A stretch of DNA of 64,000 bases, taken from contig LOER01000017.1 in NCBI GenBank assembly GCA_001515945.1, forward strand, positions 1-64,000, in the 5' to 3' direction. The notes beneath the pieces were generated by a model that saw nothing but the letters and a program-made list of their open reading frames with translations, made no database searches and had not been told where the DNA came from. Shown here piece by piece: positions 849-1,653 of the stretch (within the stretch, counting starts at the first letter, position 1; every line of letters starts with the position of its first letter). The stretch is from Desulfitibacter sp. BRH_c19. GTDB taxonomy: Bacteria; Bacillota; DSM-16504; Desulfitibacterales; Desulfitibacteraceae. The translations under genes and the position numbers were made by a program.

Positions 849-890
849 TTGACATATTAGCTAATATTTATTATAATAATAGCTAATATA
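849..890 (+). promoter_or_regulatory. promoter and paired palindromic operator of the Phd-Uma2 gene
   Basis: TTGACA (849-854) and TATAAT (872-877) are spaced by 17 bases, a full consensus promoter. A perfect 14-bp palindrome, ATATTAGCTAATAT (854-867), sits between them, and a near copy (TAATAGCTAATAT, 877-889) follows the -10. Two sites bracketing the -10 are typical of antitoxin autoregulation, which suits the Phd-like N-terminus of the encoded protein. Confidence 0.8.
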
Positions 891-918
891 AATGGTAAGT
901 AGAGGTGATATATATATA

Positions 919-1653
919 ATGCGTATTAATACTACTGATTTACAGAATGCTTTTGGGAAATATCTTTCCTTGGTAGAGAAGGAAGATATTATTATTACGA
1001 AAAACGGAAAGAGCGTCGCCAAACTCATCCACTATAACGAGCCTGATTATTTTCTTGTTCATGAAGAAACATTAAAATACAAATCGACCAGAAGAATTAG
1101 CTATGAAGAATATATGGCTCTGGTTGAATCCTCTGATCAAAGATACGAACTCATTGATGGTGAGATTTATCTATTGGCTTCACCAAGGTTTGATCATCAG
1201 GTTGTGGTCAATGAAATTGCATGGCACTTCAACAACTATTTTAAGGGAAAGCCTTGTCGATCCTTAACAGCACCGTTGGATATAAGGCTGTTCGGTTTTG
1301 CAACTAAATTCGAGGAAGACCCCAATGTTGTCCAGCCGGATGTGATTGTGATCTGTGATGAAGATAAGGTCAATGAAGATAACAAGTATGAGGGCATACC
1401 AGCACTACTTGTCGAAGTCTTGTCTCCCTCAACCAAAGGCAAGGATATGATTACAAAATTAAATCTTTACATGAAAAGCGGTGTTTCAGAATACTGGATT
1501 TTAAATCTGGACAGCAAAAGCATTACTCAATACACCTTTTCTCGTGAAAGAGAACTTGAAAGTGTAAAAGACTTTCGAGAAGGAGATACCATACAATCAA
1601 CAAATTTTAATGGCCTGGATCTCCATTTAAGAGATATTTTTTCTGAAATCTAG
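919..1653 (+). CDS. Phd/YefM antitoxin-like domain fused to a Uma2-family nuclease
   Basis: Residues 1-40 (starting MRINTTDLQNAFGKYL and containing IIITKNGKSVAKL) match the Phd/YefM antitoxin fold, which binds DNA and normally neutralises a toxin. Residues 60-240 match the Uma2 (DUF820) PD-(D/E)XK nuclease family: an RYELIDGE segment, NVVQPDVIV supplying the PD, LVEVLSPST supplying the E-x-S strand, a downstream lysine, then SGVSEYWIL. The upstream ATG at 892 is rejected because it lies only about 8 bases after the expected transcription start, whereas AGAGGTGA precedes the ATG at 919. The nuclease activity is predicted only; many Uma2 proteins have no known role. No separate toxin gene adjoins it. 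Confidence 0.8.
   Translation: MRINTTDLQNAFGKYLSLVEKEDIIITKNGKSVAKLIHYNEPDYFLVHEETLKYKSTRRISYEEYMALVESSDQRYELIDGEIYLLASPRFDHQVVVNEIAWHFNNYFKGKPCRSLTAPLDIRLFGFATKFEEDPNVVQPDVIVICDEDKVNEDNKYEGIPALLVEVLSPSTKGKDMITKLNLYMKSGVSEYWILNLDSKSITQYTFSRERELESVKDFREGDTIQSTNFNGLDLHLRDIFSEI

Follow-up and report, generated by a model that had tools for sequence, protein, structure and literature searches.

Desulfitibacter sp. BRH_c19 encodes a 244-residue protein in which a DNA-binding domain of the Phd/YefM antitoxin family is joined to a PD-(D/E)XK nuclease domain of the Uma2 family, and the gene is preceded by a phased array of TAGCTA palindromes laid over its own promoter. The gene was found in a stretch of 64,000 nucleotides (positions 1 to 64,000 of contig LOER01000017.1), referred to here as the window. 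The best reading of this arrangement, with a probability of about 0.7, is that it constitutes a solitary, autorepressed nuclease module. Sequence comparison supports the fusion itself, the operator array and its correspondence with the class of the Phd domain, an intact active site and purifying selection, as well as the lack of a conserved partner gene.

Gene structure and domain architecture

The coding sequence extends from an ATG at position 919 to a stop codon at 1651-1653. A longer open frame (892-1653) is also present; the start was assigned to 919 and not to 892 because a Shine-Dalgarno sequence is located at 901-907 and this start is conserved in the orthologues. The main features of the gene are as follows.

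919 to 1653, + strand: Phd-Uma2 fusion gene, 244 residues, ATG start (sequence; start common to orthologues)
901 to 907, + strand: Shine-Dalgarno sequence AGAGGTG (sequence)
925 to 1047, + strand: Phd/YefM DNA-binding domain, residues 3-43 (PF02604 and TIGR01552 above cut-off; Foldseek matches)
1105 to 1623, + strand: Uma2 PD-(D/E)XK nuclease domain, residues 63-235 (PF05685; Foldseek)

The first-pass annotation of this DNA had proposed, from the sequence alone, that a Phd-type head and a Uma2 nuclease share a single chain of 244 residues, and had recommended a domain search of both halves. The proposal was borne out, as both domains exceeded their Pfam cut-offs: PF02604 (Phd/YefM) matched residues 3-43 with 30.7 bits, only just above the cut-off of 29.8, and PF05685 (Uma2) matched residues 63-235 with 106.7 bits (cut-off 27). 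The head was also recognized by TIGR01552 (phd_fam; 26.2 bits, cut-off 20.8). Two AlphaFold models (mean pLDDT 84.5 and 86.0) agreed in secondary structure. Foldseek searches related the Phd head to the N-terminal domain of VapB46 (6jqy) and to a prevent-host-death protein (2odk), with probability near 1 and a weak E-value, and the Uma2 part of the first model to the crystal structures 6okh, 9y1l, 3ot2 and 1wdj.

A survey of other Phd-Uma2 fusions, likewise recommended in the first pass, evidenced that the architecture is not an isolated oddity. Twenty-six relatives were obtained from species genomes, and a search of related genomes added more. Uma2-type matches were present in 197 genomes of a sample of 398 Bacillota genomes, and the fusion (rows spanning both halves) in 55; once these regions had been retrieved and identical proteins discarded, the set comprised 124 distinct fusions. 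Among 123 fusions searched with Pfam at E ≤ 0.001, the Uma2 domain was recognized in 123/123 and PF02604 in 121/123.

Promoter and putative operator array

The region upstream of the gene contains the following elements.

849 to 854, + strand: -35 box TTGACA (sequence; survey of class A promoters, see below)
872 to 877, + strand: -10 box TATAAT, 17-bp spacer (sequence; survey of class A promoters)
836 to 841, + strand: putative operator O1, degenerate TAGGTA (22-bp register; intact TAGCTA there in many orthologues)
858 to 863, + strand: putative operator O2, TAGCTA, between -35 and -10 (10-mer 856-865; centre -14 from the -10 centre)
880 to 885, + strand: putative operator O3, TAGCTA, just downstream of -10 (10-mer 878-887; centre +8 from the -10 centre)

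The three sites follow one another at 22 bp, about two helical turns, and are interleaved with the TTGACA-17-TATAAT promoter, their centres lying at -36, -14 and +8 relative to the -10 centre. The first-pass annotation had described a double operator, with two copies of one palindrome bracketing the -10 box. TAGCTA cores indeed flank TATAAT, but the copies are not identical: ATTAGCTAAT is found exactly at 856-865, and the second 10-mer, AATAGCTAAT at 878-887, matches it in 9/10 positions, therefore TTAGCTAA occurs only once there and the common core is TAGCTA (858-863 and 880-885, 22 bp apart). The third in-register site, TAGGTA at 836-841, was absent from that account.

A lone TAGCTA is unremarkable, with 29 copies in the window vs 23 expected. 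The evidence for operators is the conserved array. In 28 orthologues (at least 59% identity), the 110-bp segments preceding the gene together contain 64 TAGCTA, where the remainder of these loci would predict 0.7 and first-order Markov simulations yielded 5.4 copies (maximum 13). Many of these orthologues display three TAGCTA at 22-22 spacing, with an intact third copy at the place where the window has TAGGTA. A second fusion in the genome of BRH_c19 (contig C26), about 46% identical to the one in the window, is preceded by three TAGCTA spaced 9 bp apart.

Two other interpretations of the motif were considered and set aside. Restriction-type avoidance of TAGCTA is at odds with the 29 copies counted in the window vs 23 expected, and, as regards a wider regulon, the other paired TAGCTA examined in this genome (loci L064, L067 and L068) are located inside long open frames. 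TAGCTA-N16-TAGCTA occurs in this genome at the promoter of the window gene only.

Two classes of Phd head with two putative operator motifs

The fusions fall into two classes according to their Phd sequence: class A (n = 85, the window gene included), mostly of the T/S-T-D/E-x-Q-N type, and class B (n = 39), of the T-A-T-E-L/F-K type. Counted over related genes, and hence not as independent trials, TAGCTA is present upstream of 80/85 class A genes (175 copies vs 1.3 expected from the rates in their own coding sequences; five genes are devoid of it) and CGTACG upstream of 0/85, whereas class B genes show YGTACR in 33/39 (CGTACG in 26) and TAGCTA in 0/39. Most of the six class B exceptions contain, by eye, related CGCAC/GTGCG sequences. 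A promoter score of at least 8.5 of 12 was reached by 79/85 class A genes vs 28 after shuffling, and the operator centres of this class peak at -36/-37, -14 and +8 from the -10 centre or, for the type with 9-bp spacing, at +11, +20 and +29. Among the controls, TAGCTA was detected in 1/26 upstream regions of Uma2 genes without a Phd domain and in 0/7 of the separate Phd genes examined. One of these seven, in the genome of BRH_c19 (L004, C41:16120), has TGTACA palindromes of the GTAC type, the usual YefM-type core, before its start, and a class A fusion with a broken frame (L013/L061) still retains two upstream TAGCTA.

Sixteen genomes contain both classes, in one case on a single contig (L039), and every gene keeps the motif of its own class. 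Since both classes keep their own motifs within single genomes, the motif follows the Phd domain of the gene and not the host. This observation bears on the proposal that the TAGCTA sites belong to another host regulator, which appears very remote: the type of site switches with the Phd class of the gene even within one genome and one contig, and Uma2 genes lacking a Phd domain also lack TAGCTA (all but one of the 26). Such a match within single genomes is hard to explain except by autorepression through the gene's own Phd domain. Comparison lends strong support to autorepression via the Phd head, and the first-pass suggestion that the N-terminal half silences its own gene, which is a prediction, gained support from the phylogenetic footprint and from an operator sequence that tracks the type of Phd.

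YefM binds TGTACA palindromes that overlap its own promoter (PMC4803016); for this reason, class B seems to use the ordinary Phd code and class A a modified version of it.

The nuclease domain and the selection acting on it

The residues of the predicted active site are listed below.

1195 to 1197, + strand: H93, conserved His in the active-site region (99% of 124 fusions)
1336 to 1341, + strand: P140-D141, predicted catalytic motif (invariant in 124)
1414 to 1416, + strand: E166, predicted catalytic acid (invariant in 124)
1456 to 1458, + strand: K180, migrated catalytic Lys of the PD-EXX-K variant (invariant in 124)

The loss of the Uma2 catalytic residues in relatives had been named in the first pass as an observation that would speak against its proposal. 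Instead, P140, D141, E166 and K180 are present in 124/124 fusions. The PD-EXX-K arrangement with a migrated Lys has been described for COG4636, and H93 would correspond, by inference, to H43 of all3650 (PMC551604). Median dN/dS values in class A orthologues were 0.06 for the Phd domain, 0.11 for the Uma2 domain and 0.31 for the linker, rough estimates given that synonymous changes are near saturation; both domains are under purifying selection.

The invariance of the active site is relevant to another possible reading, in which the protein would be a transcription factor whose Uma2 fold merely aids binding or oligomerization and does not cut. Non-catalytic PD-(D/E)XK folds are known (PMC551604), and autorepression is the best-supported property of the protein; against this, all the catalytic residues are invariant in the 124 proteins, and the absence of further 22-bp arrays in the genome of BRH_c19 leaves such a factor with no evident regulon. 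This possibility is thus considered decidedly improbable.

The linker and the possible restraint of the nuclease

The segment between the two domains contains one conserved element.

1063 to 1080, + strand: linker motif E49-x4-Y54 (conserved inside an otherwise variable, poorly predicted linker)

E49 is present in 98% and Y54 in 94% of the 124 fusions, and the pLDDT is below 50 at about residues 41-56 in both AlphaFold models. E-x4-Y was also detected just before the Uma2 core in 14/24 Uma2 proteins without a Phd domain vs 3.2 in shuffled segments, among them most of those with an HTH_17 head. Because it recurs in the latter, the motif looks like an element of Uma2 rather than an antitoxin tail.

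The first-pass annotation had also suggested that the N-terminal half restrains the nuclease. Developed further, this idea would give the Phd half two tasks as an intramolecular antitoxin, silencing of the gene and inhibition of the nuclease, which would be freed by proteolysis or by unbinding from DNA. Precedents exist in one-gene YefM-YoeB fusions (PMC11980606) and in EzeT, a toxin kept inactive in cis by a domain at its own N-terminus (PMC4803016), and the conservation of E49 and Y54 in the linker would fit with such a role. However, the toxin-neutralizing segment of Phd/YefM proteins is placed C-terminal to the DNA-binding domain (PMC4803016), and such a segment was not found here: the Phd match stops at residue 43, Uma2 starts at 63, and what is present is the DNA-binding/dimerization portion only, with a short linker in place of the neutralizing segment. 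Moreover, the linker motif is shared with HTH_17-Uma2 fusions, hence it is not specific to Phd, and many Uma2 genes have no head of this kind. Restraint by the N-terminal half is therefore not supported by the comparison, and the intramolecular antitoxin is regarded as unlikely.

Relatives, gene neighbourhood and possible mobility

A tree of the Uma2 domain placed the sampled Phd fusions in one branch (100/99), within which class B forms one branch (100/99) and class A lies to one side (93/65); HTH-Uma2 proteins were placed elsewhere, apart from the Phd fusions. This topology fits with one fusion event followed by a split of the operator code within the sampled Bacillota. The head that replaces Phd in the separate branch is HTH_17 (excisionase/MerR-like), observed at L024, L025, L028, L029, L041 (- strand), L063 (- strand) and L079. 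The presence of a class B Phd-Uma2 gene, an HTH-Uma2 gene and a broken class A copy on the contig with L063 suggests that these genes cluster and decay. Tandem arrays were also observed at L034 (G012 C19) and L018 (G053 C1): two adjacent Phd-Uma2 genes that belong to different classes, and three successive Uma2-only genes.

The description of the gene as self-contained, advanced in the first pass, agreed with its surroundings, as no conserved partner was detected among 26 loci: no neighbour family occurred in more than 4-5/26, except for antisense frames of the gene itself. Accordingly, the adjacent separate toxin gene that characterizes type II toxin-antitoxin systems was not found at these loci. 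The proposal that the main role of the protein is to neutralize, in trans, a toxin encoded at an unlinked locus is scarcely credible; its membership in TIGR01552/PF02604 would make an annotation pipeline call it an antitoxin, but the toxin-binding tail is missing and no toxin gene is conserved nearby at the 26 loci. In the window, the gene is directly followed by a convergent gene (1709-2641, - strand) encoding a GNAT acetyltransferase with a fused MarR-type winged helix, which has no counterpart in the same-genus genome with the closest relative, and a divergent TetR-like regulator (1-607, - strand; identified from the sequence and its open reading frame) is located upstream, a similar gene being present at two other loci examined.

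Nucleotide similarity to 12 relatives begins at 831-854, i.e., at the first operator or the -35 box, and ends at 1541-1672, mostly at the stop codon. These boundaries are weak evidence for movement as a unit, because at 77-86% identity free intergenic DNA often would not align anyway; the different neighbours around the gene in a same-genus relative are better evidence. No relatives of the fusion were found in viral contigs, and phages yielded one Uma2-only match. Among the plasmid matches listed, Uma2 occurs without a full Phd head, and the two that reach toward the Phd region correspond to genes annotated as Uma2 only.

These data are also pertinent to a reading in which the Phd head would bring the nuclease to TAGCTA arrays, so that cutting at or near them would be its function, either for selfish spread or for self-limiting cleavage. 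A nuclease and a DNA-binding head do reside in a single polypeptide, the head being HTH_17 instead of Phd in a separate branch of Uma2, and the gene is found in unrelated neighbourhoods with similarity confined to the operator-plus-gene segment. Nevertheless, the only 22-bp array in its own genome is in the promoter of the gene, which guided cutting would then hit, TAGCTA is not depleted in the window, and the placement of the sites over the promoter is what repression needs. Guided cleavage is thus considered improbable.

Proposed mechanism and significance

Returning to the autorepressed nuclease module, a model can be proposed in which the Phd domain would dimerize and bind the phased palindromes O1-O3, which are interleaved with the -35 and -10 boxes, so that the protein would shut off its own transcription and remain scarce. 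The Uma2 domain would be a catalytically competent PD-EXX-K nuclease, acting once the protein leaves the operator or accumulates. Defence or a solo toxin is the most likely use and, at somewhat less than even odds, the weakest step of the explanation. It is proposed because Uma2 was put forward as a likely solo toxin by Makarova and colleagues (PMC2701414) and because the domain matches the PADLOC candidate profile PDC-S03 (193.7 bits, residues 56-242). This match starts after the Phd head and covers the Uma2 part only, and the phage-defence label is a prediction for which no published test was found in the available open-licence literature. Twenty sequence changes have been reported in one Uma2 gene, Tsac_2318 (PMC6997586).

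On a broader view, which is put forward tentatively, these genes may be widespread one-gene, self-repressing nuclease elements, each an operator-plus-gene unit of ~820 bp moving between unrelated loci, with two operator codes (TAGCTA and YGTACR) that would allow paralogues sharing a cell to be regulated independently, and acting as solo toxins or anti-phage nucleases.

Uma2 proteins, although abundant, lack an established function. A large branch with a built-in repressor head and an operator code that can be read offers a direct handle on them, as the control of the gene is suggested by its promoter and an activity to be assayed is predicted from the intact active site. A further suggestion is that a DNA-binding domain of the antitoxin type can work simply as an autorepressor when it shares a polypeptide with an enzyme; profile-based annotation can mislabel such genes as antitoxins.

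Comparison with known systems

The protein shares with the Uma2 family (PF05685, COG4636, formerly DUF820) the fold, the PD-EXX-K site with a migrated Lys, the patchy multi-copy distribution and the probable condition of solo gene (PMC551604, PMC2701414). It differs in the N-terminal Phd head and the matching operator array; no such fusion is described in the accessible text of these two papers, nor was a description found in the available open-licence literature on Uma2 (COG4636, DUF820).

As in the Phd/YefM antitoxins (Phd-Doc, YefM-YoeB), the DNA-binding domain is N-terminal and hexameric palindromes, here putative operators, lie over its own promoter, and TGTACA, the core of the yefM operator (PMC4803016), is one of the sequences covered by the class B motif YGTACR. 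Unlike in these systems, there is neither a separate toxin nor a toxin-neutralizing tail, and class A genes use TAGCTA, here with 22-bp spacing, vs TGTACA at 12 bp.

A parallel in design is provided by fused one-gene toxin-antitoxin modules (YefM-YoeB, BrnT-BrnA and RelE-YiaG fusions; EzeT), which likewise combine an antitoxin-type domain with an enzyme of the toxin type in a single chain; for the YefM-YoeB fusions, binding to operators in their own promoter is predicted (PMC11980606). The enzyme is here a PD-(D/E)XK nuclease in place of a BECR RNase or a zeta kinase, and the Phd-Uma2 proteins are far more numerous than the 5 prokaryotic YefM-YoeB fusions listed in PMC11980606.
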